Positions 2,466 through 40,285 of a stretch of DNA of 48,140 bases are shown in pieces. The stretch is taken from positions 1 to 48,140 of the forward strand of contig JAUHWY010000001.1 in assembly GCA_030427255.1 (NCBI GenBank). Direction: 5' to 3'. The DNA is from Bacteroidia bacterium (GTDB lineage Bacteria; Bacteroidota; Bacteroidia; CAIKAF01). A program made the position numbers and the translations under genes. The notes below the pieces were generated by a model. The model made no database searches, was not told the origin of the DNA, and saw only the letters and a program-made list of their open reading frames with translations. The first letter of the stretch is position 1. Each line of letters begins with the position of its first letter.

Positions 2466-3674
2466 ATGAAATCTGAGAAACAGCGTTGGACCGCACAGCG
2501 CGTGTTGGATATGTCCGAGTCGGAGACTTTGGCCATGGCGCGCAAAAGCCGCGAATTGCAGGCTGCGGGCAAGAATATCATCAATTTGTCGCTGGGGGAA
2601 CCTGATTTTGATACCCCTGATTTTGTTAAAAAAGCGGCTATTCAGGCCATCAAAGAAAATTATTCGCATTACACCCCCGTGCCCGGTTATGCCGATTTGC
2701 TGCAAGCTATTTCCCGCAAGTTTAAGCGCGATAACCAATTGGAATACCAAGCCCATCAGATTGTGGTTTCTACCGGTGCAAAGCAAAGCATTGCCAATTT
2801 ATGTTTGGCGGTGCTTAATCCCGGCGATGAGGTTTTGGTACCGGCTCCCTATTGGGTTAGTTACCGCGAAATCATTCGTTTGGCCGGTGCAGTGGCCGTG
2901 CCGGTACTGGCCGGTGTAGCACAAGATTTTAAGGTTTCTGCAGAGCAGTTGCGTAAGGCAATAAGCCCCAAAACCAAAATGCTCTTATTTAGCAATCCTT
3001 GCAATCCCACAGGAGCCGCTTACAGCTACGATGAATTGGAAGCTTGGGCACAAGTGCTGCGCGATTATCCTAATGTGTTGGTGGTTTCAGACGAAATTTA
3101 TGAGCGCATTCGATTTGAGGGAAGCCACCAAAGCATGGCGGCATTCGAGGGAATGTACGAAAGAACCGTTACCATAAATGGGTTAAGCAAGGGTTTTGCG
3201 ATGACCGGGTGGCGATTGGGTTATTTAGCGGGTCCGACGGAAATAGCGGCCGCTTGCAGCAAAGTGCAAGGACAACTTACTTCGGCCACATGCAGCATTA
3301 GTCAGCGGGCTGCGATTGCCGCCTTGGATGCCACCGAAGAAGCGACGGCCTATATGGTAGAGGCCTTTAAACATCGCCGCGATTTGATGCATCCCCTGTT
3401 GTTGGAAATACCCGGTTGGGAAGTTCCGCTGCCGCCCGGGGCTTTTTATTTTTTCCCGGAGGTAAGCCATTATTTTGGAAAAGTTTTTGGAAACACGCCC
3501 ATAAAAGACGCTAACGACTTGTGCATGGTGCTGTTGGAAGAAGGTGGTGTGGCCACCGTACCCGGCGATGCGTTTGGCATGCCGGGTTGCCTTAGGCTTT
3601 CGTATGCCACCGACGAAGCTACCTTACGTGAGGCCGTGCGCCGCATAAGGGAAACCTTAGCTTTATGCCGGTAA
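2466..3674 (+). CDS. aspC: Aspartate aminotransferase (class I PLP-dependent)
   Basis: A 402-residue fold-type I aminotransferase of the AspAT subgroup I-beta type. It transfers the amino group between aspartate and 2-oxoglutarate using PLP in the cytoplasm. Visible landmarks are the N-terminal LSLGEPDFDTP, the NPCNPTG motif around 177-183, SDEIYERIRFEG with the PLP-binding Asp at 209, and the Schiff-base Lys242 in SKGFAMTGWRLGY. The length is normal for the family. The ATG at 2466 lies just after the GC-rich island. The stop overlaps the start of the K+ transporter gene by 10 bp, so the two are probably cotranscribed. Exact substrate preference (Asp, or aromatic or Ala relatives) cannot be read from sequence alone. 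Confidence 0.9.
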   Translation: MKSEKQRWTAQRVLDMSESETLAMARKSRELQAAGKNIINLSLGEPDFDTPDFVKKAAIQAIKENYSHYTPVPGYADLLQAISRKFKRDNQLEYQAHQIVVSTGAKQSIANLCLAVLNPGDEVLVPAPYWVSYREIIRLAGAVAVPVLAGVAQDFKVSAEQLRKAISPKTKMLLFSNPCNPTGAAYSYDELEAWAQVLRDYPNVLVVSDEIYERIRFEGSHQSMAAFEGMYERTVTINGLSKGFAMTGWRLGYLAGPTEIAAACSKVQGQLTSATCSISQRAAIAALDATEEATAYMVEAFKHRRDLMHPLLLEIPGWEVPLPPGAFYFFPEVSHYFGKVFGNTPIKDANDLCMVLLEEGGVATVPGDAFGMPGCLRLSYATDEATLREAVRRIRETLALCR

Positions 3675-5509
3675 AAGCCTTAATTCGAGCGCTGAGGGAG
3701 CGGATTAATGTCCGTATATACTCCTCCAAGCAGCGGGTTATCAATCTGCTGAGGGGCTTACGTTTTTTGGTTTCTTTTGGCATGATAGGCCTGTTGGTTT
3801 ACGTGCATGGTTTTCCCAACTCGGTGCTGAGTTTTGAAACCTATCAATGGTGGATAAGCGGTAGTTTTTTATTTTTTATCGTTAGCTTTTTAATACGTCT
3901 GTTTTTTGATTTTGAGCCACGAAGGTTTCTTCGGGGCAACTGGTTGGAGGGCAGCTTGTTGTTGGTGGTGACGGCCGATTTGGTCAGTCGAATTATTTAT
4001 CGAAAGCCATTGATTGCCCATTTCATGGCTAATTTGCCCGCCGAGGCGGCTAGTCAGGTGTTCTTTGTGTTTTCCCAACTGGTGCTTTTGTTGATTGTGC
4101 TGTTGGAGTTGGGCAAGTTTTCGCAGCGTTTGTCGGTGCTTAAGCTCAATCCCTCCTTGTTATTTGTGGGTAGCTTTTTGTTGTTGATTGGGGTTGGTAC
4201 CGGCCTGCTTATGTTGCCGGCCATGACACAAGCCCAGGTCTCCATGCCCTTTTTGGATGCCTTGTTCACCTCTGTCAGTGCCTCCTGCGTTACCGGATTG
4301 ATTGTGGTGGATACGGCCACCTATTTTTCAATGAAAGGTCAATTGGTGATTTTGGTGCTGATTCAATTGGGAGGCTTAAACATCATTTCTTTTGCCAGCT
4401 TTTTTGGTACTTTTTTACGGAGAGGAATGGGTATTCGTCAGCAGCGCATGATTAAGGATTTTATGAGCTATGATTCCTTAAACAGCACCCGAAGCTTGCT
4501 AAAGCGGGTTATCGTGTTTACGCTGCTTTTTGAGAGTTTGGGCGCGGCCTATATTTTTTTGACCTGGGATCCGTCGGTTCCTTTTGCCCATGCCGGAGAA
4601 CGCTTGTTTCACAGCGTGTTTCATTCCATTTCAGCCTTTAATAATGCCGGTTTTAGCACCTTTTCGGGAGGCTTATTTGAACCGGGTGTGCGCAACAGCT
4701 ACATCATGCATTTGGGCATTGCTGCCTTGGTATTTTTTGGAGGGATTGGCATAACGGTGTTGAACGATTTATTTGATCCGGTGCGTATGCGTAGGCGCTT
4801 GCGCGAGCCTTGGCGGCGCTTGGAGCCCGGCAGTCGCCTGGCCTTGTATACCGGCTTGGTGTTGTTGCTTGCCGGGGCCTTGGTATTTGGTTTGGTGGAG
4901 GCCAGGAATCCTGCGCAGCTGGTAGAAGGTGGTTTTAGGCAGCAAAACTGGTTTGAACAAACCATTACCGCTGTTTTTCAAAGTATGATAACCCGAACCG
5001 CGGGCTTTAATACCACAGATATAGGCATTTTAGCCACCCCGACCTTACTCTTTTTTATTTTCCTCATGTTTATTGGTGCCGGGAGTGGCGGTACCGGCGG
5101 GGGGGTAAAAACCTCTACTTTTTCTGTGATTTTTTTGTCTGCCTTGAGCACCATACGCGGAAAGCGATTGGTAGAAATTTATCGGCATACCATTTCTTCC
5201 GAGTTGTTGAATAAGGCCTTTTCAATTTTCTTGTTTTCTGTTTCCGTAATATTTGCCGGCTTGTTTGTGCTCACCTTTACAGAGCCCGACGTTCCTTTTT
5301 TGCAATTGCTTTTTGAAGAGGTTTCGGCTTTTGCCACGGTGGGCTTAAGTACCGGAATAACCTCAGACTTATCCGAAGCCGGTCGGTTGGTGCTTATGGT
5401 TTCTATGTTTTTGGGTAGAGTAGGTGTGCTGACTTTGGCCGTGGCCGTAAGCCGCAAAGCCATTACCAACAATTATAAGTACCCCGATGCCTACCTAATG
5501 TTGGGTTAA
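3665..5509 (+). CDS. trkH: TrkH/KtrB-family potassium uptake membrane protein
   Basis: A 614-residue polytopic protein with the four pore-loop repeats of the TrkH/KtrB/HKT family, visible as SASCVTGL, SAFNNAGFST, ITRTAGFNTTD and SAFATVGLSTG, each carrying the selectivity-filter Gly. The first 130 or so residues add several extra hydrophobic helices before the core. It imports K+ (often with Na+ or H+) across the inner membrane. Its usual cytoplasmic gating partner TrkA/KtrA, with NAD-binding RCK domains, is not next to it: the next gene is menG. It overlaps the aminotransferase gene by 10 bp. Confidence 0.88.
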   Translation: MPVKALIRALRERINVRIYSSKQRVINLLRGLRFLVSFGMIGLLVYVHGFPNSVLSFETYQWWISGSFLFFIVSFLIRLFFDFEPRRFLRGNWLEGSLLLVVTADLVSRIIYRKPLIAHFMANLPAEAASQVFFVFSQLVLLLIVLLELGKFSQRLSVLKLNPSLLFVGSFLLLIGVGTGLLMLPAMTQAQVSMPFLDALFTSVSASCVTGLIVVDTATYFSMKGQLVILVLIQLGGLNIISFASFFGTFLRRGMGIRQQRMIKDFMSYDSLNSTRSLLKRVIVFTLLFESLGAAYIFLTWDPSVPFAHAGERLFHSVFHSISAFNNAGFSTFSGGLFEPGVRNSYIMHLGIAALVFFGGIGITVLNDLFDPVRMRRRLREPWRRLEPGSRLALYTGLVLLLAGALVFGLVEARNPAQLVEGGFRQQNWFEQTITAVFQSMITRTAGFNTTDIGILATPTLLFFIFLMFIGAGSGGTGGGVKTSTFSVIFLSALSTIRGKRLVEIYRHTISSELLNKAFSIFLFSVSVIFAGLFVLTFTEPDVPFLQLLFEEVSAFATVGLSTGITSDLSEAGRLVLMVSMFLGRVGVLTLAVAVSRKAITNNYKYPDAYLMLG

Positions 5510-9229: not shown

Positions 9230-10351
9230 TTATTCAATGATCACAAATTCTCTGAAATTTTCTTTATCAATTATTTTTGTCTCAGCACGGTAGGCCTCAG
9301 TGAAGGTTTTTGGCAGTTTCCGATTGTTTTTTTTCTTCCATTTGAATCCAAATCCAAAGATGTTTCCTCCAACCTCCTCTACGAAATCAACCTCCTGTTG
9401 TTGTTTTGTTCTCCAAAAATAGGGACGAGCAAGACTTTCCTTGTACTCAAGCTGTTTCATTCTTTCCGATATTAAAAAATTCTCCCAAAGCGCGCCTTTG
9501 TCCGTCCTGAGTTCTATGGGGTTGAAATTACCAATCACCATGTTTCGTATTCCATTGTCATAGAAGTAGATTTTTTTATTGGTTTTTATTTCATTCCTTA
9601 GGTTTCGACTAAAACTACTCAACTTAAAAATGATGTACCCTTTTTCTAAGATGTCAATGTATTTGCTAACCGTATTCTTGTCTACGTTAAGCATTTGAGC
9701 CAATTCCGAATAGTTAACTTCACTACCAACCTGGAGAGCAAGCGCTTGAACAAGCTTATCGAGAACCTCCGGCTTGCGAATATCGGCATAGGACAGAATG
9801 TCTTTGTACAAATAGCTGTTCACCAAATTCCGGAGGACCCCAATTTCATCACCCACGTGATTTAAAACATCCGGGTAAAAGCCAAAGAGTAGTCTATGCT
9901 CTAAACTCTGCTCTGCATATAAAAAACCGTGATGGTTTTCATACTCTTCCCAAGAAATAGGGAATAGCTGATATTCCCATTTCCTGCCGGTTAAGGGTTC
10001 ATTGATTTTATTGGTTAAATCAAAAGAGGAGGAGCCGCTGGCAAACAATTGAACGTTTTTGAATCTATCGGTTACTATTTTCATTGTAAGCCCAATTCCC
10101 TCAATTCTTTGAGCTTCATCTATGAAAACGTATCTGTAATTCCCTATTATCCTGCGAATCTGTTCGGTGTTCGGCTCAGTTAATAAAGTTCGTGTTTTAG
10201 GATCATCTCCGTTTAGCAGTAAATAGTCTTTTGATTCAAGAATCGATTCGAGGAGCGTTGTTTTCCCCACTTGCCTAGGACCAATTACAACAATAGTCTT
10301 GCCTGAATCTATGCGTTTCTTAATTCGTGTACTAAGGTACCTTGAGTACAT
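9230..10351 (-). CDS. ATP-binding protein with AAA_14 and DUF4143 domains
   Basis: A 373-residue P-loop ATPase of the AAA/DUF4143 family. Walker A is GPRQVGKTT, Walker B is YVFIDEAQ, and a sensor-like SGSSSFDL follows. A winged-helix-like segment (NYSELAQMLNVDKNTVSKYI) is followed by the DUF4143 region, which ends in a nuclease-like EVDFVEE...FGFKWKKK pattern. The ATG at 10349-10351 is preferred because a TACCTTTA box lies immediately upstream on the minus strand; an in-frame ATG at 10393 would add 14 residues. The gene is clearly more AT-rich than its neighbours and sits between repeat-containing gaps, suggesting acquired DNA. The biological role of this widespread family is unclear. Confidence 0.82.
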   Translation of the reverse strand: MYSRYLSTRIKKRIDSGKTIVVIGPRQVGKTTLLESILESKDYLLLNGDDPKTRTLLTEPNTEQIRRIIGNYRYVFIDEAQRIEGIGLTMKIVTDRFKNVQLFASGSSSFDLTNKINEPLTGRKWEYQLFPISWEEYENHHGFLYAEQSLEHRLLFGFYPDVLNHVGDEIGVLRNLVNSYLYKDILSYADIRKPEVLDKLVQALALQVGSEVNYSELAQMLNVDKNTVSKYIDILEKGYIIFKLSSFSRNLRNEIKTNKKIYFYDNGIRNMVIGNFNPIELRTDKGALWENFLISERMKQLEYKESLARPYFWRTKQQQEVDFVEEVGGNIFGFGFKWKKKNNRKLPKTFTEAYRAETKIIDKENFREFVIIE

Positions 10352-10393
10352 GGTTTTTTTGTAAAGGTAATAACTTTCGATTATTATATTCAC

Positions 10394-10823
10394 TAATAGT
10401 TATGTTTTTTGGTGATTGAATGCCGAATATATTTTGAGGACCCCTCTTTGTTGCTTTATGGACATCTTTTTGTCTTTTGCCCATTGGGGCATCTCTTGCC
10501 AACGGAAGCCGCTCCTTTTTAAACCCAAGTTTCTGAGGTGCAGACACCCGCACTAAGGGCTAGGGTCGTTATTTCAGCGGCAGTTTAGCGTGATCTACCA
10601 TGCATTGGTCCGATCTGTTTTTGACTTAGCGCGCCTTAATGCTGTGCAGCACCCTTCAACGGTTTGAGCAATCTAAGGTTGTTTGAATTCTTTTTTTTTG
10701 CAAATTAAAGATACTTAAGGTATGTTTGACTGATGTTTGGCATGTAAACCTAAAGGTTAGGGCACAATAAATGGCCACATCAATTGTTTATATGAACTGC
10801 AGTTGAATCCTTAATGTTTTTGC
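10394..10823. other. Intergenic gap of 430 bp; promoter region of lipoprotein copy 1
   Basis: No coding pattern is visible. The right end carries the promoter described separately and a leader of about 90 nt. The middle (10440-10690) has mixed composition, and I see no clear repeat or hairpin in it. Confidence 0.5.
10697..10728 (+). promoter_or_regulatory. Promoter of mini-GldJ/K lipoprotein copy 1
   Basis: TTTG (10697-10700), a 20-nt spacer and TATGTTTG (10721-10728) match the Bacteroidota sigma consensus closely. Transcription would begin near 10735, giving a leader of about 90 nt before the ATG at 10824. Confidence 0.65.
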
Positions 10824-11450
10824 ATGATGCTTAGATACTTGGCTCTGGTATGTTTATTTGGCCTATTCGCTTGTGGCTCCGCTCGGAAAACCCCTTATCA
10901 TTGGGGCTTATCCATGGCAGATAGCACTTTTTTGGATAAACAGCCCATTCCTTTAACAGGTTATAATGAGTTTTTGACGTATTTCCTGTTTTTTAGAGGA
11001 GACACCGCTGCTTTTAAAGACAATTTTCCGGATACCATGCTGATACATAAAAAATACCCGGGCATGACCAACTCCTATAGGATCTTAAGGAATCCGATTT
11101 TAATAGACTCCGCTATAGTTGGTGTTACGTATTCTTCAGCCTTGGCATACAATAAGTGGAGAACCGAAATTGTGCGGGTAACGGACCCTAAATCAAGAAG
11201 GATTCTTTATAACCTTCCCGGTCCCGAAGACTTTAAAAAAGCAGAACGTCTGGCTGCAGGGCGAAACGATAAGGCAAACTGGAAGCACCTATTCGAAGGT
11301 CCTCCCGAATGGACCAATATTCCCGGCTACGTTTGGGTAAAATCCAATGAAGGCGGTCGTTTGGTTCAGGCTTCGGAAGTTCCGGCACATGAAATTACCT
11401 TTAGGTGCAAAGCGGAATTGCGACCTCCCATTTTGCCTCCTATCTTTTAA
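10824..11450 (+). CDS. Short GldJ/GldK-like (FGE-fold) lipoprotein, copy 1
   Basis: A 208-residue lipoprotein (lipobox GLFAC, Cys17). After the signal it reads TFLDKQPIPLTGYNEFLTYFL, FPDTMLIHKKYP, SAIVGVTYSSALAYNKWRTE, YNLPGPEDFKKAERLAAG and ends HEITFRCKAEL. These blocks match, in order, the pattern of the formylglycine-generating-enzyme-like domain of gliding lipoproteins GldJ/GldK (DE.EVTN..Y, LPDT..W, VVGVSW.QA..YC.WR, RLPTEAEWEYAARGG, GFRC), but those proteins are two to three times longer, so the central core is missing. It has its own promoter. Catalytic FGE activity is unlikely; a structural or binding role at the cell envelope is inferred. Similarity was judged by eye. Confidence 0.7.
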   Translation: MMLRYLALVCLFGLFACGSARKTPYHWGLSMADSTFLDKQPIPLTGYNEFLTYFLFFRGDTAAFKDNFPDTMLIHKKYPGMTNSYRILRNPILIDSAIVGVTYSSALAYNKWRTEIVRVTDPKSRRILYNLPGPEDFKKAERLAAGRNDKANWKHLFEGPPEWTNIPGYVWVKSNEGGRLVQASEVPAHEITFRCKAELRPPILPPIF

Positions 11451-11589
11451 GGACTTGGATTGAAAATAATCCCATGCGCTGTTGGTACTTCGGCAAGATT
11501 AAGCACACCTATTTTGTGTAGTCTTGAACCTCAAAGTCCTTAAACCTCATTTTTGGCTACGCTCTCTTTGGCGCAGGGACTGAGCCGGT
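11451..11589. repeat. Copy of an interspersed segment shared with 16321-16390
   Basis: 11523-11592 aligns with 16321-16390, beginning CTTGAAC and ending in an identical stretch, TCTCTTTGGCGCAGGGACTG, plus AGCCG. It abuts the decayed lipoprotein copy 2 precisely where homology to the intact paralogs starts, so it has replaced the promoter and signal peptide of that copy. Confidence 0.7.
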
Positions 11590-12192
11590 GCCTCCTACGC
11601 TTCAAGCCGGAGCTATACGGATAGGTATAATGCATTCCTAGCAGACAGCTTGTTTTTGGATAAGGCTCCGGTGCGAAACTTAGGATATCAGTTTTTTTTG
11701 TTTTCCCTTCAATATTACCGTGCAGACACCGCAGCTTCTGTAGAACATATACCGGACTCCTCCTTGATTCATCGGCGATACCCAAGCATTCATTCTCGCG
11801 TCCTGCCCTTCTTAAATTCTGCCTTTTTTGACTCCTCCATTGTGGGTGTATCTTTTGAAAAGGCCCAATCCTATTGCAGGTGGAGAGCAGAAGAAAGTCG
11901 TAGGGAAGTGTACCGCGAGTCAAAGGCCAGAAAAGTTTTGTTGGTTAAATACAGCCTGCCCGGTCCCGAAGACTTTAAAAAAGCAGAACGTTTGGCTGCG
12001 GGGCGAAACGATAAGGAAAACTGGCAATACCTATTTGAAGGCCCTCCCGAATGGACCAATATTCCCGGCTACGTTTGGGTGAAATCCAAAGAAGGCGGTC
12101 GTTTGGTTCAGGCTTCGGAAGTTCCGGCGCATGAAATTACCTTTAGGTGCAAAGCGGTACTGGTGCCTTGGACAGGTGCACCTGTGCTGTAG
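11590..12192 (+). pseudogene. 5'-truncated mini-GldJ/K lipoprotein, copy 2 (chimeric)
   Basis: From 11590 the sequence is homologous to the copy at 14077, starting at GCCTCC just before the lipobox Cys; everything upstream (start codon, signal peptide) is absent and the frame is closed by TGA at 11581. The lipobox Cys codon TGC has become TAC (Tyr, 11596-11598). The rest is open to the stop at 12190-12192. The front half (to about 11955) is nearly identical to copy 4 and the back half nearly identical to copy 1, so it is a recombinant. A TTG at 11650 could at best start a 180-residue cytoplasmic fragment. I regard it as a decayed or donor copy rather than an expressed lipoprotein. Confidence 0.8.
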
Positions 12193-12356
12193 ATTCAGCA
12201 AATTACCCTCTTTAAAACCGGTAGTGCTGACGTCTTGAGTTTCTATCTGTAGTGTTGAGTATATTTCTACTGTTGGACTGCCAAATAGCGTTAGAGCTGC
12301 GATTTAAATAGTAGAAGTAGTGATTCTGCTCTATTTCAACTTTTTTTTAGATTCTA

Positions 12357-12387
12357 TTGTTTTTTCAACCAAGGATTTTTAACTTAG
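12357..12387 (+). promoter_or_regulatory. Candidate promoter of the 12416-13959 operon
   Basis: TTG (12357-12359), a 20-nt spacer and TAACTTAG (12380-12387), close to TAnnTTTG, lie 28 bp before the ATG at 12416. The -7 box has one mismatch to consensus. The rest of the gap 12193-12356 shows no gene. Confidence 0.4.
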
Positions 12388-12415
12388 CAATAATAACATT
12401 CAATCTTAATTACTT

Positions 12416-13021
12416 ATGGCAACTATCCAAAGAAAAATCAATCCATACCTTCATGTAGGTACGTTAATGGAAGAAGGTTTAGGGTATGTTGGTACAAATC
12501 TTGGAACTCTATCTGTTGACAATTTGATTTCAGCAATAGGGGAATACATAAATACAATTGAGTTTAGTACCGACAATAGATTTGATGCCAACCTTATCAA
12601 TACCATAGGCTTATCAGCTATTGCATTGAATTCTTTTGATGAAAGTATTGATATGGATGATTTCGATAATGACGGCATTTATCAACTATTATCCAATGAC
12701 TCCGACAGCTTTACTAAGTATGAAGGTAATATTGAAACTATTGAAAATCGGTCTTTTCAAGATTGTGAAAATCTCGATATTGGTGCTCTTCAATTAGCTT
12801 GCATTATAGGAAAGTCATCCGCAAATTATTGGAAAGCACAGATAGACACTCCAGGTAGTTCACCCTGGCAAACGTATTTGCCTGGATCGTTTTCATCAGT
12901 TTATTCAAATGAGGCGATAAGAGGAGCCTTATTGTTTGTAACCAAAGGTTCTGGGCTAATGGGGATTCTTGCAGCTGCGCTTACTTTTTCGAGTTATGAA
13001 ATGGTTAAAGGATCCTTGTAA
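12416..13021 (+). CDS. Unrecognised acidic protein, first gene of a three-gene operon
   Basis: A 201-residue protein that I do not recognise. It has no N-terminal signal; the middle is rich in Asp/Glu/Asn (FDESIDMDDFDNDGIYQLL) and the C terminus holds one hydrophobic segment (GLMGILAAALTFSSYEMV, about 178-195) that could be a membrane anchor or an amphipathic helix. Base composition is distinctly AT-rich compared with the housekeeping genes. It is followed after 39 bp by the 95-residue gene, which overlaps lipoprotein copy 3, so all three are probably one transcript. Whether it is a cargo, immunity or effector-like protein cannot be told. Confidence 0.65.
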   Translation: MATIQRKINPYLHVGTLMEEGLGYVGTNLGTLSVDNLISAIGEYINTIEFSTDNRFDANLINTIGLSAIALNSFDESIDMDDFDNDGIYQLLSNDSDSFTKYEGNIETIENRSFQDCENLDIGALQLACIIGKSSANYWKAQIDTPGSSPWQTYLPGSFSSVYSNEAIRGALLFVTKGSGLMGILAAALTFSSYEMVKGSL

Positions 13022-13060
13022 CTTTATGCAAAAATTTTTAAATAAATAAAAATTGAAATC

Positions 13061-13348
13061 ATGGCAAAACCCTATAGAATAAGAAAAACAGAAACGGGCA
13101 CTACTGGTGGTGCTGTTTACACATGGTGGTGCAGGGATAACCCAGATATATGGGGTGAGACCGATTCTAAAGAGGTGGCAATTGCACAAGCAGAAGCAGC
13201 ATGTGGAGATAGATATGATATTGACAATCCAATTGCTAATATTGCACCTATTTCTTCGGTAAACCCTTCATTTAATTCTTGTGCGTCCTGTTCGAGAAAA
13301 ATTTCGCTTAAGAGCTCAAAATCAGATTTTCAATTTTTGTCGCCATGA
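13061..13348 (+). CDS. Unrecognised 95-residue protein coupled to lipoprotein copy 3
   Basis: A small protein without a signal peptide, starting MAKPYRIRKTETGTTGGAVY. It has two Trp in tandem (YTWWCRDNPDIWGE), an Ala/Glu helix with a Cys (AIAQAEAACG) and a C-terminal SCASCSRK. Its TGA overlaps the ATG of the lipoprotein gene (13345-13348, ATGA), the classical layout for translational coupling. It is AT-rich like its upstream neighbour. No family was recognised. The Cys-rich tail does not fit the CxPxR target motif of formylglycine-generating enzymes. Confidence 0.6.
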   Translation: MAKPYRIRKTETGTTGGAVYTWWCRDNPDIWGETDSKEVAIAQAEAACGDRYDIDNPIANIAPISSVNPSFNSCASCSRKISLKSSKSDFQFLSP

Positions 13349-13959
13349 TTATGCGCCTTTTACTTTTTACCATTGTTGTTTTTGCTGCTTCTTGCGTTTC
13401 AAACAGGAAAAGTGCTGAAGCCTATGGGCTATCCATGGAAGACAGTTTGTTTCTGGACAAACAACCCCTAAGGCATGTTGCCTACTTGGAGTATTTGCAC
13501 TACCTGAAGAGGGTGCGGTGCGACACAGCCGGCTTTTGGACTAGCCTTCCTGATACCATGTTGGTGAAACAAAGGCACCCCGGCTTAAACGCTCGCTTCA
13601 TTTTAAGGCATCATTCCTATTACGACACTTCTATAGTAGGTATTTCTTATGCCAATGCTATGGCCTACTGCAAGTGGCGTGGCGAAGTCGTGCGAAAAGA
13701 AGGTGGGCAGATTTATTACGATTTACCCGGTCCGGAAGATTTTAAAAGGGCCGAACGCCTAGCTTCCGGTAGAAAGGACAAAAACAACTGGAAATACTTA
13801 TTCGAAGGGCCGCCCGAATTGACCAATATTCCCGGCTACGTTTGGGTAAAATCCAAAGAAGGTGGTCGTCTGGTAGAGGCTTCGGATGTTCCGGCGCATG
13901 AAATTACCTTTAGGTGCAAAGCAGAGCTAATGCCTTATTCCGGAACTACTTTCTTTTGA
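13345..13959 (+). CDS. Short GldJ/GldK-like (FGE-fold) lipoprotein, copy 3
   Basis: A 204-residue lipoprotein (lipobox AASC, Cys17). It has the same blocks as copy 1: SLFLDKQPLRHVAYLEYLHYL, LPDTMLVKQRHP, TSIVGISYANAMAYCKWRGE, YDLPGPEDFKRAERLASG, FEGPPELTNIPGYVWVKSK and the terminal HEITFRCKAEL. The front half has diverged from the other copies while the last 60 residues are nearly identical to copy 4. It starts inside the stop of the 95-residue gene, so it is expressed as the third gene of that operon rather than from its own promoter. A second in-frame ATG at 13351 is also possible. Confidence 0.7.
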   Translation: MIMRLLLFTIVVFAASCVSNRKSAEAYGLSMEDSLFLDKQPLRHVAYLEYLHYLKRVRCDTAGFWTSLPDTMLVKQRHPGLNARFILRHHSYYDTSIVGISYANAMAYCKWRGEVVRKEGGQIYYDLPGPEDFKRAERLASGRKDKNNWKYLFEGPPELTNIPGYVWVKSKEGGRLVEASDVPAHEITFRCKAELMPYSGTTFF

Positions 13960-13984
13960 TGGTAGCACTTAGTCGGAAGGATTA

Positions 13985-13992
13985 TAACTTTG
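13985..13992 (+). promoter_or_regulatory. -7 box of lipoprotein copy 4
   Basis: TAACTTTG fits TAnnTTTG. The leader of about 78 nt contains a hairpin, CCAAAAAA (14007-14014) with TTTTTTGG (14022-14029). A TTTG at 13955 is too far upstream (26 nt) to be a good -33 box. Confidence 0.45.
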
Positions 13993-14076
13993 AATTCAAA
14001 TTTCAGCCAAAAAATTGGTGCTTTTTTGGTTGTTTAGCTTAAACATTAGTCTTTATTCATCCTAACATAAATCTCC

Positions 14077-14721
14077 ATGATTATTCGCTTGTTCCTCTTA
14101 TGTACTTTGATATTTTTTGCCTCCTGCGCTTCTAGCCGGAGCGATACAGACAAGTACAACGCAGCCTTAGAAGACAGCTTGTTTTTGGATAAGGCTCCTG
14201 TGCGAAACTTAGGATATCAGTTTTTTTTGTTTTCCTTCGAATATTATCGTGCAGACACCGCAGCTGCTGTAGAGCACATGCCGGACTCCTCCTTGATTCA
14301 TCGGAGATACCCAAGCATTCATTCTCGCACCCTGTACCGCATGAATTCTGTTTTTTTTGATTCTTCCGTGGTGGGTGTATCTTTTGAAAAGGCCCAAGCC
14401 TATTGCAGGTGGAGAGCAGAAGAAAGTCGGAGGGAAGTGTACCGCAAGTCAAAGGCTAAATGGACTTTGGTGGTTAAATATAGCCTACCTGCTCCTGAGG
14501 ATTTCAAAAAAGCCGAAGCCTTAGCAGTAGTAAACAAGGACGAAAACAACTGGAAATACTTATTCGAAGGGCCGCCCGAATTGACCAATATTCCCGGCTA
14601 CGTTTGGGTTAAATCCAAAGATGGTGGTCGTTTGGTGGAGGCTTCAAAAGTTCCGGGGCATGAAATTACCTTTAGGTGCAAGGCGGAGTTGCTACCTCGC
14701 AGCTTGCCTCCTATTTTTTAA
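14077..14721 (+). CDS. Short GldJ/GldK-like (FGE-fold) lipoprotein, copy 4
   Basis: A 214-residue lipoprotein (lipobox FASC, Cys17) and the best match to the FGE-like pattern: SLFLDKAPVRNLGYQFFLFS, MPDSSLIHRRYP, SSVVGVSFEKAQAYCRWRAE, KYSLPAPEDFKKAEALA and the terminal HEITFRCKAEL. In full-length FGE-fold proteins the segment after RLPTEAEWE runs another 100 or more residues before GFRC; here it is only about 60. It has its own -7 box and leader. It is probably exported and lipidated, facing the periplasm or cell surface. Its front half is the parent type of the decayed copy 2. Confidence 0.72.
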   Translation: MIIRLFLLCTLIFFASCASSRSDTDKYNAALEDSLFLDKAPVRNLGYQFFLFSFEYYRADTAAAVEHMPDSSLIHRRYPSIHSRTLYRMNSVFFDSSVVGVSFEKAQAYCRWRAEESRREVYRKSKAKWTLVVKYSLPAPEDFKKAEALAVVNKDENNWKYLFEGPPELTNIPGYVWVKSKDGGRLVEASKVPGHEITFRCKAELLPRSLPPIF

Positions 14722-14762: not shown

Positions 14763-16292
14763 TTACCTAGGGTATTCCAAACGCACAGGGGAATAGGTTT
14801 TTTGGGTCGGCTTGTTTAATCGCTTTATGTAATGCCAGGTGCCCACCGCCTTCTCATTGGTTAAATCTATCCGAAGGTACCCATGGCGTTTTAGGTCCAG
14901 GTATTCGGCATGCGGATTCAATTCTTTGTTTCTGAGTTTCTTTTCGAGTATACTTACCTTCCACCCGGCAATGTATTCGTCCAAATTTGCAGAGCTAATG
15001 CTTGGGGTAACCCATTCGGCTCCAAAGGTGGTTTGGGCACTATCCAAATGGCTCCTCAATTCAAAGGCAAATGAGGCATGCACATCACCCGTCAATACGA
15101 GCAAACCGGATACTCCGGATGTTTGTAAGGTATCTGCAATAAAATCTCGTTCCACAGGATAGCCCTCCCACATATCCATGCTCTTGGGATTGGTTTCTTC
15201 CAGTTTGGGCGGCAATCGGTACGACGAAAAAATAACCTGGTTGCCTACCAATTTCCAATGTGCTTTGGATTGGGTCAAACCATCAATCAACCATTGGGTT
15301 TGGGCTTTTCCAAGCATGGACCGTTCGCTCAGAAAACGTGCCGAGTCTTCCGGAGAATCCGCTTGAGGGCTGCGCCCCTCCAAACGGCCATCCAGCATAA
15401 ACAACTCAGCGAAATCCCCAAAGCTGAACTTCCGCCTTACTCCACCCTGTGTGCCTTCCTCAATAGGAAGCCAAGAAAAGTATACTTTTTTGGCAACTTC
15501 TTTTCTTACTTCCCATGAGCCTTCGGTTTCGGGTTGATGGTTTTGGGCACCGCTAAGATGCGCATCGTTGGCAATTTCGTGGTCGTCCCAAACGGTGATG
15601 AAGGGGTGCATACGGTGCGCTTCTTGGAGGTCTGCATCCAGCCGGTATTGAGCATAGCGACTTTCGTAGTCTGCGCGGGTTACAATTTCGTAGCTCGGAA
15701 TGTGTTTTCTTGGCAATTTTTCGTCGCCGTATTTTCCCACGCCATATTCATAAATATAATCTCCTAAATGAATAACGGCTTGCAGGTTCTTTTCCTTAGC
15801 GATAAGTCTGTAGGCATTAAAATAGCCCCATTCGTAATTGCTGCAGCTGGCCACGGCAAAACTCAGGCTATCTGTATGTGAAGAAGCGGTTCGGGTTCGG
15901 CCTATGGGACTGCAAGCGTCTTCGGTACAGAACCTGTAATAATAGGTGGTTCCGGGCATTAAATCCGAGGCCAAAAGCTTGACATTGTAAAAGTTTTTCC
16001 GTTCGGCCACCAAAGGTCCGGTGGATGTAACGTCCTTAAAATTGCTGTCTAAAGCCACCTGAAACCTCAAGGTTAAGGTTTCGGCGGAAGGATGCCAAAG
16101 GCGCGTCCACAGAACCACTTGATTTTCTTTTGGGTCGCCGGAGGCAAGTCCAAAAGGGAAACGGAGCTGTTTTTCGGCAAGCAAAGAATCCATAGCAGGC
16201 ACATACAGCGGAGTGCTTTGCTGTGCCTGAACAAAAACACATAGGCAGTAGAAGGGAACAATCCAACGCATGTACAAAGAACTAAAGTGCAT
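14763..16292 (-). CDS. phoD: PhoD-like alkaline phosphatase
   Basis: A 509-residue secreted phosphatase or phosphodiesterase of the PhoD family, which hydrolyses phosphate esters outside the cytoplasm with a Ca/Fe centre. The signal peptide ends near FVQAQQ; an N-terminal beta-sandwich (FGLASGDPKENQVVLWTRLW) precedes the metallophosphatase core with SCSNYEWGYFNAY, VIHLGDYIYEYG, TVWDDHEIANDAH and VLTGDVHASF. The length is typical. The start is uncertain: ATG at 16292 gives eight extra residues before MRWIVPFYCLC, and the ATG at 16271 also gives a good signal peptide. No Pho box was recognised. It runs convergent with lipoprotein copy 4. Confidence 0.9.
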   Translation of the reverse strand: MHFSSLYMRWIVPFYCLCVFVQAQQSTPLYVPAMDSLLAEKQLRFPFGLASGDPKENQVVLWTRLWHPSAETLTLRFQVALDSNFKDVTSTGPLVAERKNFYNVKLLASDLMPGTTYYYRFCTEDACSPIGRTRTASSHTDSLSFAVASCSNYEWGYFNAYRLIAKEKNLQAVIHLGDYIYEYGVGKYGDEKLPRKHIPSYEIVTRADYESRYAQYRLDADLQEAHRMHPFITVWDDHEIANDAHLSGAQNHQPETEGSWEVRKEVAKKVYFSWLPIEEGTQGGVRRKFSFGDFAELFMLDGRLEGRSPQADSPEDSARFLSERSMLGKAQTQWLIDGLTQSKAHWKLVGNQVIFSSYRLPPKLEETNPKSMDMWEGYPVERDFIADTLQTSGVSGLLVLTGDVHASFAFELRSHLDSAQTTFGAEWVTPSISSANLDEYIAGWKVSILEKKLRNKELNPHAEYLDLKRHGYLRIDLTNEKAVGTWHYIKRLNKPTQKTYSPVRLEYPR

Positions 16293-16483: not shown

Positions 16484-16727
16484 GGAGACTGTTGATGCAT
16501 TGCGTTTTCAAGACGCAGTTCCTGACCTAAGCGTCAGGGGTTTAAGGCGCAGGCAAATAGAAAGGCCACTGACGCTGCGGTCAGGGCAGGCCGCAGTTTA
16601 CTAATTGTAAATGAGGACCCCTGACGCTGCGGTCAGGATAAAATACTTGAAATTTGCCCGTAACGCAAACCCTGACGCCTTGGTCAGGGCAGGTATGCCG
16701 CCAGAATAGCCTCCCTGAAAGGGTCTC
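16484..16727. repeat. Interspersed GTCAGG element, copy B
   Basis: This copy opens with GGAGACTGTTGATGCATTG and contains four CCTGAC/GTCAGG-type hairpins (16521-16538, 16569-16584, 16620-16637, 16671-16688). It shares GTAAATGAGGACCCCTGACG and CCGTAACGCA with copy C near 29.25 kb. Its right inverted end is degraded (AGAATAGCCTCCC...GGGTCTCC). No gene is present. Confidence 0.75.
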
Positions 16728-29123: not shown

Positions 29124-29393
29124 GGAGACCGTTGACGCGTTGTGTTTTCAAGCTTTTTGTCCTGACCGTAGCCTCCGTGCGAATTAAGGCACGGTTAAAA
29201 TAAAAGTCTCCTGACGCTTCGATCAGGATAGTCTAAAGTTCACTGGTTGTAAATGAGGACCCCTGACGCTTAGGTCAGGACAAAGTGTTTGAGATTTGGC
29301 CGTAACGCAGACCCTGACGTTACAGTCAGGGTTTATAATCCTTACCGCAGCGTCAGGGCAGGATCGCCGCCAGAATAGCAACGGGTCAACGGT
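29124..29393. repeat. Interspersed GTCAGG element, copy C, with matching inverted ends
   Basis: The best-preserved copy, 270 bp. The ends ACCGTTGACGCGTTG (29128-29142) and CAACGGGTCAACGGT (29379-29393) are inverted repeats matching at 14 of 15 positions. Inside are CCTGACGCTTCGATCAGG, CCTGACGCTTAGGTCAGG and CCTGACGTTACAGTCAGG hairpins. There is no open frame of note; the element does not encode a transposase. Confidence 0.8.
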
Positions 29394-39460: not shown

Positions 39461-40285
39461 TTATTGCGACCACATGTCGGACTCGAAGAGCCTTAAATCT
39501 TCTTTGAGTTCGTTGGCTTCGAGCAGGGCTTCCGTGCCTTTGGCGTAGCTTGCGATGTGCCTGTCCATGGCGTTGTCTTTTTTGTAAATCAGCGCTTGGA
39601 ACATGCGGTTTTTAAAGATGTCTTCGAAGCTGAGCGGCTTGCTGAGGTTCCAAGGGTTGTAGCATAGGTATGCCGCAAGTACCGGTCGCAGTTCCTCAAA
39701 TGGAATCCAGAACATCTCTTTTCTATAACGCAGTTCGCCGGTGGAGGGGTCATGCACGTTCATAACCGGCGCTATGGCAATGATTCGGAAATCGAGCATG
39801 GAACGGCTGCGGTCGAAGAACCATTCTTCTTTGATTTTAAAGAATTGTACGTCTTCGGGATTGAGCGGCGTGTGCACGGCTTTGGGTTCCGGGGTGTAGG
39901 GTGGGTCCTTTTTGGGAATCATGAAGGTGTCGGTGCGGCTGCCCACGGCCAAGGCTTCGGCGGCGGTCATGGGTTCTTTGAAGTCGTCGCGGGCAAAGGT
40001 GCGGACTTTCTCTTGCCGAATGGCTTCCTTAAGCACCCAAAGCAGGTTGTAGCGCCCGTCGGTGGGTTCAAATGGGAAATACAGCGGCTGGTTGATTTTT
40101 TGCCTAAGGTCTATGATTTGCCAGTAGCGTCCGGCCCAGGTAACGTCGGCCTCGCGCACATAGGGTGCCGGGATTTTACGCTGGGGCAGATTATCGCCTT
40201 GATAGCTGCCATCGGGCAAGGTGATTTGTGCATGTAGGGAGGTGCAGAGCAAGGCCACACCCAGATATAGAGCTTGAGTCTTCAT
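39461..40285 (-). CDS. gldN: Gliding motility/type IX secretion protein GldN (PorN)
   Basis: A 274-residue protein with a signal peptide (MKTQALYLGVALLCTSLHAQ). The mature sequence opens GDNLPQRKIPAPYVREADVTWAGRYWQIIDLRQKINQPLYFP, which is diagnostic of GldN/PorN; FDRSRSMLDFRIIAIAPV, MFWIPFEELRPVLAAYLCYNPWN and SFEDIFKNRMFQALIYKK follow. In the type IX system GldN/PorN forms a periplasmic ring with lipoprotein GldK/PorK. It is usually the last gene of gldKLMN; here it stands alone with no gldK, gldL or gldM in sight, so it may be a second copy. Confidence 0.88.
   Translation of the reverse strand: MKTQALYLGVALLCTSLHAQITLPDGSYQGDNLPQRKIPAPYVREADVTWAGRYWQIIDLRQKINQPLYFPFEPTDGRYNLLWVLKEAIRQEKVRTFARDDFKEPMTAAEALAVGSRTDTFMIPKKDPPYTPEPKAVHTPLNPEDVQFFKIKEEWFFDRSRSMLDFRIIAIAPVMNVHDPSTGELRYRKEMFWIPFEELRPVLAAYLCYNPWNLSKPLSFEDIFKNRMFQALIYKKDNAMDRHIASYAKGTEALLEANELKEDLRLFESDMWSQ

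Follow-up and report, generated by a model that had tools for sequence, protein, structure and literature searches.

An array of small lipoproteins with a predicted FGE-like fold and apparently recombined N-lobes in a Bacteroidia bacterium

The array and its four copies

The stretch of DNA analysed here (the window: 48,140 nucleotides, positions 1 to 48,140 of contig JAUHWY010000001.1 of the Bacteroidia bacterium assembly GCA_030427255.1) carries on its forward strand, at 10824-14721, an array of four paralogs: three intact lipoproteins of about 205 amino acids (aa) and one 5'-truncated copy. We call their products minis, for miniature lipoproteins with a fold like that of formylglycine-generating enzyme (FGE), and number the copies w1 to w4. 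A close relative, genome G004, carries two intact copies (m1 and m2) and a mini tail fragment. The intact genes of the window are w1 (10824-11450, +, 208 aa), w3 (13345-13959, +, 204 aa), and w4 (14077-14721, +, 214 aa). In w1, the variable N-lobe cassette extends over 10911-11210 (+, about codons 30-129), and the conserved C-lobe repeat (family D1) over 11208-11420 (+). Protein identity to w1 is 58% for w2, 56% for w3, and 50% for w4. With w1 as the query the other three copies match at E values of 4.9e-72 to 4.4e-65, and a 213-nucleotide (nt) stretch coding for the C-terminal part is present four times, the later copies being 92, 82, and 78% identical to the first; the copies are therefore paralogs rather than chance resemblances. 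Coordinates, mutual identity, and the truncation of w2 thereby confirm an earlier reading of this DNA (the sequence-only reading), which had described four paralogs within 4 kb, three intact and one decayed. The motifs it gave as shared are present overall, but were quoted slightly too strictly, since LPDT, AYCxWR, and ITFRCKAEL vary by copy: LPDT is exact in w3 only (FPDT in w1, IPDS in w2, MPDS in w4), the AYC.WR position reads AYNKWR in w1 and SYCRWR in w2, and the C-terminal motif of w2 is ITFRCKAVL.

The decayed copy, w2 (+), is recognisable by homology from about 11589 to its end at 12192. Its frame opens at 11584 and offers no start codon until a TTG at 11650; the signal peptide is absent, and a Tyr occupies the position of the lipobox Cys. 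The DNA directly before the w2 homology matches sequence downstream of m2 in G004, that is, array-flanking DNA. We consider w2 a likely pseudogene.

Predicted fold and cysteines

Family profiles recognise the minis only distantly. The gathering score of the FGE-sulfatase family PF03781 (23.3) is not reached, five of the six minis scoring 16.2-20.6 bits and w1 giving no match. The NCBIfam cut-offs for GldJ (458.2 or 382.9 bits) and GldK (350 bits) are missed widely, the best scores among the six being 35.2 bits (E 5.6e-9, w3) and 28.7 bits (E 7.8e-7, w4), whereas the genome's own GldJ (462.4 bits) and GldK (571.3 bits) pass. A sequence profile from the minis and their relative L005 matches PorK in the PDB at 1.1e-12. 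AlphaFold models were made for w3 and w1, with 36 aligned proteins each; they have mean pLDDT values of 88.3 and 87.1, a pTM of 0.81 each, and a nearly identical order of helices and strands. PorK of Porphyromonas gingivalis ranks first among known structures for both w3 (Z 12.9, 178 residues, 4.6 A) and w1 (Z 13.3, 179 residues, 4.3 A), and the FGE-fold protein CarF second (Z 12.1 and 12.3, respectively). CalU17, PvdO, EgtB, and FGE follow at about Z 9-11, C-type lectins at about Z 5-7, and the w1 model matches TvpA at Z 10.6. The best Foldseek E values are 3.8e-4 for w3 and 1.3e-3 for w1. As far as these models go, the minis have an FGE-like fold; the models and the first rank of PorK bear out what had been read from the letters, and the search for FGE, GldJ, or GldK likeness returned matches rather than an unrelated fold. 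The middle of the minis is indeed shortened relative to GldJ and GldK, as it is in L049 (216 aa) and L055 (212 aa), two short relatives from another family.

The region from the AYC motif to the FRC motif is free of further Cys in all six minis; the catalytic Cys pair of FGE is accordingly absent. The AYC.W and FRC cysteines correspond by motif to the structural Cys pair of human FGE, and we take the two motifs to represent its residues 218 and 365. In the human enzyme, Cys218 and Cys365 form a disulfide (PMC4505483). The mature w4 and m2 proteins, whose N-lobes are of one type (type A, see below), hold the AYC/FRC pair and the lipobox Cys and no further Cys. The AYC cysteine is lost from w1 while FRC is kept, and there is an extra Cys59 in w3 and an extra Cys81 in m1; one unpaired Cys per protein is predicted for the N-lobe types B (position 195), C (59), and D (81), and none for type A. 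The minis are probably non-enzymatic. A catalytic FGE, EgtB, or PvdO enzyme is disfavoured by the missing FGE Cys pair and by the first rank of the non-catalytic PorK, the comparison of catalytic residues covering the FGE cysteines.

Lipidation and orientation

On inspection, a signal peptide with a lipobox Cys is found in w1, w3, and w4 (Cys17), and in m1 and m2, but not in w2; the lipoprotein nature proposed earlier is therefore supported for three of the four window copies. The residues after the Cys are GSARK, VSNRK, ASSRS, DSARK, and TSNRG. An acidic export signal at this place has been described for surface-exposed lipoproteins of Bacteroidetes (PMC5080379). We sought it in the five lipobox-bearing minis and found none, though the genus may have a different signal of its own. 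Because the acidic signal is missing, we infer an orientation towards the periplasm: the minis are most likely anchored in the outer membrane and periplasm-facing.

Mosaic structure of the copies

The comparison of the six genes (w1 to w4, m1, and m2) sets a variable N-lobe apart from shared ends. The N-lobe (about residues 30-130) occurs in four types: A (w2, w4, and m2), B (w1), C (w3), and D (m1). Nucleotide identity in this middle block is 89-93% within type A and 50-56% between types, where synonymous divergence (dS) is mostly saturated. The pair w1 and m1 is the clearest case, with 99% nt identity in the signal block (dS 0), 52% in the middle (dS saturated), and 93% in the C-lobe; blastn homology of w1 to G004 ends at 10909 and restarts at 11214. 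The first 29 codons of w1, together with the ATPase gene upstream, match G004 at 95.6%, and the w1 C-lobe with its downstream DNA is 95.1% identical to the m2 counterpart, the 137 nt that follow the stop codon of w1 recurring unchanged after m2. The segment formed by the w3 C-lobe, the spacer, and w4 is 86.7% identical to that formed by the m1 C-lobe, the spacer, and m2. Over its final 48 nt m1 agrees with w3 at 98% of positions but with w1 at 56%; the spacer between m1 and m2, in turn, resembles that of w3-w4 (92% identity) far more than that of w1-w2 (36%). Hence m1 has the 5' side of w1, the extreme 3' end and spacer of w3, and the N-lobe of neither, while its C-lobe as a whole is nearer to w1 (93%) and w2 (92%) than to w3 (81%).

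In 12 of the 15 pairs, a max-chi2 analysis of third codon positions located a break that no more than 5 of 1000 shuffles reached; weaker were w1-w3 and w3-m2 (34 of 1000 each) and w2-m2 (347 of 1000). The shuffles take sites as exchangeable, and the 15 pairs have sequences in common. For the nine pairs whose dS exceeds 0.4, the dN/dS ratio of the C-lobe is 0.08-0.25, and by these figures the C-lobe is under purifying selection. Recombination between copies apparently produced the shared ends with divergent N-lobes.

Family and distribution

In a tree of 39 proteins the six minis stand together (100/100), as sister to a protein of 286 aa that both genomes carry in single copy (L005 and L039; 96/78, not starred). 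With ten short GldJ-like proteins they make up a 100/98 clade, seven other short proteins falling outside. The 14 GldJ proteins form a clade of their own (98/99) that excludes the minis, and forcing minis and GldJ into one clade is marginally rejected (approximately unbiased test, p 0.042). A direct truncation of GldJ is disfavoured on these grounds, with the same marginal p value. The kinship to GldJ and GldK asserted by the sequence-only reading holds in the sense that the proteins are related; by the tree and the NCBIfam scores, however, the minis appear to be offshoots of a separate short GldJ-like family and not of GldJ or GldK themselves. We conclude with moderate confidence that they arose by duplication within this Bacteroidota family.

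Minis were found in two of 295 genomes of the class only, those of the window and of G004. The search for the same array in related genomes, which the earlier reading had called for, thus succeeded in G004 and not in the four other congeners, which have GldJ and no minis; these are distant, with 64-65% identity of a neighbouring enzyme. Strong matches to the short family (E at most 1e-45 and a frame of at most 340 aa, counted by eye, with five fused frames of about 700 aa excluded) number at least 41 in 34 genomes, of 395 class genomes searched. Among the matches listed there are five in the window genome, three in G004, two in G182 (on separate contigs), and one in each of 31 genomes; both here (six) and in the search for minis, scoring was confined to the top 6 to 10 candidates of each genome, so that weak extra copies may be missed. 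When genome contigs were scanned with w3, the matches were L007 (full length, 57%) and, weakly and in part only, a Lachnospiraceae metagenome-assembled genome (MAG; 31% over 65 residues). We found no relative of the minis among viral contigs (searched by peptide patterns) or plasmids and no match in PADLOC, and the best hit in PHROGs had an E value of only 0.037. The literature searched (titles and the starts of abstracts, with few subscription papers covered) held no description of such an array. In the sampling used, this unusual set of FGE-fold lipoproteins of the non-catalytic kind was seen in two closely related genomes.

Several observations on the wider family may be recorded here. Contig C134 of G182 carries two adjacent weaker matches (E about 1e-38), at 3374-4201 and 4512-5357, which may form a different sort of array. 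A 700-aa protein of G181 (L053 1213-3315, -) has, by eye, two FGE stretches after an N-terminal part with a membrane segment, and frames of about 700 aa like it occur in four more genomes. Across eight loci of short relatives, some of them ended by contig ends, no common neighbour of the FGE-like gene was found, with one exception in two genomes of one family: there (L068 6070-9416 and L069 3892-7027) the short FGE-like gene follows a gene of sigma-70 type, identified by Pfam, and a 588- or 591-aa gene that has no Pfam match and looks anti-sigma-like by eye. Elsewhere in these loci, L071 contains a sigma gene (30%), and L070 and L071 match each other over 118 residues (32%).

Neighbouring genes and locus dynamics

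Upstream of the array lies an AAA_14/DUF4143 ATPase gene (9230-10393, -; PADLOC PDC-S01) whose product has 99% protein identity to its G004 counterpart. Its dS between the two genomes is 0.061, against 0.24-1.27 for nine other nearby genes, and this low value suggests a recent exchange of the ATPase and the start of w1 between species. A candidate Bacteroidota-type promoter, TTTG-N20-TAnnTTTG, is located at 10697-10728 (+), about 95 nt upstream of w1; it is a weak pattern match, and a scan of the window with this consensus of Bacteroidota promoters gave three matches where 2.4 are expected by chance, which is not above chance.

Between w2 and w3 the array is split by a stretch (12193-13344, +) without a match in the G004 stretch. 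It contains ORF201 (12416-13021, +, 201 aa) and ORF95 (13061-13348, +, 95 aa), the stop of the latter overlapping the start of w3 in an operon-like manner. Outside its own genome, ORF201 had no relative at E 0.001 among the 395 phylum genomes sampled, nor in the plasmids searched, and neither frame gave an informative match in Pfam, NCBIfam, PADLOC, or PHROGs.

Downstream of w4 lies a PhoD-like phosphatase gene (14763-16292, -). In G004, the PhoD-like gene (L046 3559-5088) is upstream of the array, beside the mini tail fragment, and lies between direct repeats, each some 180 bp long (L046 2711-2883 and 5144-5321); no PhoD-like gene was found in the four other congeners. The window also holds a dispersed repeat of about 195 bp (16484-16677 and 29124-29319, 76% identity) and, at the contig start (1-561), short direct repeats (1-113 with 55-167, and 220-361 with 421-561). 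On another contig of the genome (C13; L076 1243-3386) there is a retron-like reverse transcriptase gene (its match to a retron model, at 2.6e-83, stays below the cut-off), closely followed by a gene for 295 aa.

Links to gliding and type IX secretion

The sequence-only reading had placed parts of the type IX secretion system (T9SS) in the window, and searches recover them: PorT (1.3e-55) and GldN (4.3e-56), as well as GldA (1.1e-116, just below the cut-off) and a PorV family match (9e-16, below the cut-off). The genome has porP-gldKLMN (contig positions of about 184160-190025) and GldJ, all above the NCBIfam cut-offs, and the gldN of the window (39461-40285, -), above the TIGR03523 cut-off, is a second, solitary one apart from that operon. 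The array is near porT in G004, the sole relative that bears it. In a further genome, G033, a gene for a 280-aa FGE-like protein (PF03781, 49.5 bits) shares 4 nt with the beginning of a gldN (108.7 bits against a cut-off of 85.9); together (L041 832-2645, -) the two are possibly a second ring-like pair. GldJ, GldK, and GldN have been modelled as the gliding track, and GldK has a reactive Cys343 (PMC12635249); PorK is described as a docking hub on this fold that has no enzyme activity (PMC12421860). The GldK segment that probably contains Cys343, a residue placed only by its offset to Cys320 of the genome's own GldK, has no counterpart in the minis, and no such Cys was seen in them. A role of the minis in T9SS or gliding is possible, although closeness of the genes does not prove one.

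Interpretation

We propose, with a probability of roughly 0.55, that the array consists of outer-membrane-anchored, non-catalytic lipoproteins of the FGE/C-type-lectin fold, derived from the short GldJ-like family and with N-lobes reshuffled by recombination, which together make up a small repertoire of docking modules. Duplication within the family would have created the array; recombination between copies and between close species would keep the signal peptides and C-lobes common, while the N-lobe would stay in, or be exchanged among, sharply different types. The C-lobe may dock on one common envelope partner, with the N-lobe bearing a variable binding face, and unequal recombination could then expand, shrink, and reshuffle the repertoire. 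Our confidence in the structural and evolutionary claims is firm to moderate; the function we infer. In its boldest form, which we hold to be improbable, the array would be a diversification system free of retroelements: the lipidated end and the C-lobe would stay constant on the envelope machinery, N-lobe cassettes exchanged between copies or species would change the client, and the unpaired Cys could tether clients through a disulfide, the kind of bond that joins GldK to SprF and PorG.

Several points weigh against this proposal. The mosaic rests on two genomes and six genes; both assemblies are drafts, G004 being a MAG and the window genome lying in 57 contigs, and repeats may therefore be misassembled. 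The mini branch of the tree is long (2.09), and recombination blurs the tree. As to the fold, Foldseek support for w1 is modest (none at 0.001), PorK is tied with CarF for w3 by the structure search's own rule, and the alignment behind the models already held FGE-like relatives. The divergence of the N-lobes may also be a matter of plain age, with recombination stopped by mismatch, and not of selection for diversity.

An alternative that we regard as doubtful though deserving attention is that the copies are plain tandem duplicates under concerted evolution, in which gene conversion homogenises the 3' half and the N-lobe differences are old and have no special function. It would suit the restriction of minis to two close genomes, the decay of w2, the partly homogenised C-lobes, and the fact that strong short-family matches, among those listed, are single in 31 of 34 genomes. 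On the other hand, most FGE motifs are preserved in the N-lobe types, as are their open frames, and age alone does not explain why w1 and m1 have the promoter region and the signal in common but different N-lobes. Somewhat less credible to us, and close to the interference suggested by the sequence-only reading, is a role as accessory or decoy subunits of the T9SS or gliding track, in which the minis would bind GldN, GldK, or GldJ and thereby modulate or obstruct the machine. PorK comes first for both models, the genome has the core genes and a second gldN in the window, and a short FGE-like gene overlaps gldN in G033; in the tree, however, that gene has a long branch and does not belong to the mini clade, the GldK segment that probably bears Cys343 has no mini counterpart, and four congeners keep GldJ but no minis.

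A role in conflict, with the minis as receptor or immunity variants against bacteriocins, toxins, or phages that are swapped between strains, seems improbable. In its favour are the variable middle flanked by constant ends, the recently exchanged neighbour ATPase of the defence-candidate class PDC-S01 (dS 0.061), and the orphans ORF201 and ORF95 inside the array; against these stand the lack of a PADLOC match, of a viral-contig relative, and of an acidic surface-export signal, and a best PHROGs E value of 0.037. ATPases with DUF4143 are common. We reject the idea that the array is the target of a diversity-generating retroelement (DGR), as the FGE-fold variable protein TvpA is, and give it next to no credence. 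TvpA does match a wider profile of 36 proteins (5.6e-20) as well as the w1 model, but the sole PF00078 reverse transcriptase that the genome yielded is the one on C13, which resembles those of retrons, and the variable part of the minis is the N-lobe. The variable regions of the DGR proteins TaqVP, Mtd, and TvpA are C-terminal (PMC6328139).

The proposal of a docking-module repertoire matters because the assignment of GldJ and PorK/GldK to the moving track and the ring of the gliding and type 9 secretion machinery is itself recent. Relatives pared down to one constant and one variable half would be an example of how a non-enzymatic fold is re-used, and natural swaps of N-lobes offer a way to map which face binds what. 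If N-lobe exchange is indeed selected, it would be a DGR-free route to diversity on a scaffold that DGRs use.

Comparison with known systems

Among the relatives of known role, GldJ (TIGR03524/TIGR03530) is like the minis a lipoprotein of FGE-like fold and has the same N-lobe motifs (YLEYLH, LPDT, and VG.S...A..YC.WR, clearest in w3), but it is about 480-580 aa long with large insertions, and the minis score at most 35 bits against it and fall outside its clade. PorK/GldK (TIGR03525) is the first structural match, a non-catalytic FGE fold that serves as a docking hub, whose insertions and middle Cys segment are missing from the minis. The short GldJ-like proteins of Bacteroidota (L005, L049, L051, and others) are nearest, with the same clade, a single FGE domain, and the N[VA][SA]EM and GFR ends; they differ in their length of 212-325 aa in the tree and in having mostly one strong match per genome, whereas the minis are mostly smaller and multi-copy, and several of the short proteins are without an evident lipobox (by eye). 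Variation of envelope proteins by recombination is known from P. gingivalis, where surface proteins such as RagAB are varied by allelic exchange (PMC5266723); these are proteins of other kinds, and the accessible part of that source does not mention the FGE fold. TvpA and Mtd, finally, also show a variable face on a C-type-lectin scaffold of the FGE type. Their variation is C-terminal and driven by a retroelement, whereas that of the minis lies in the N-lobe and apparently comes from recombination.

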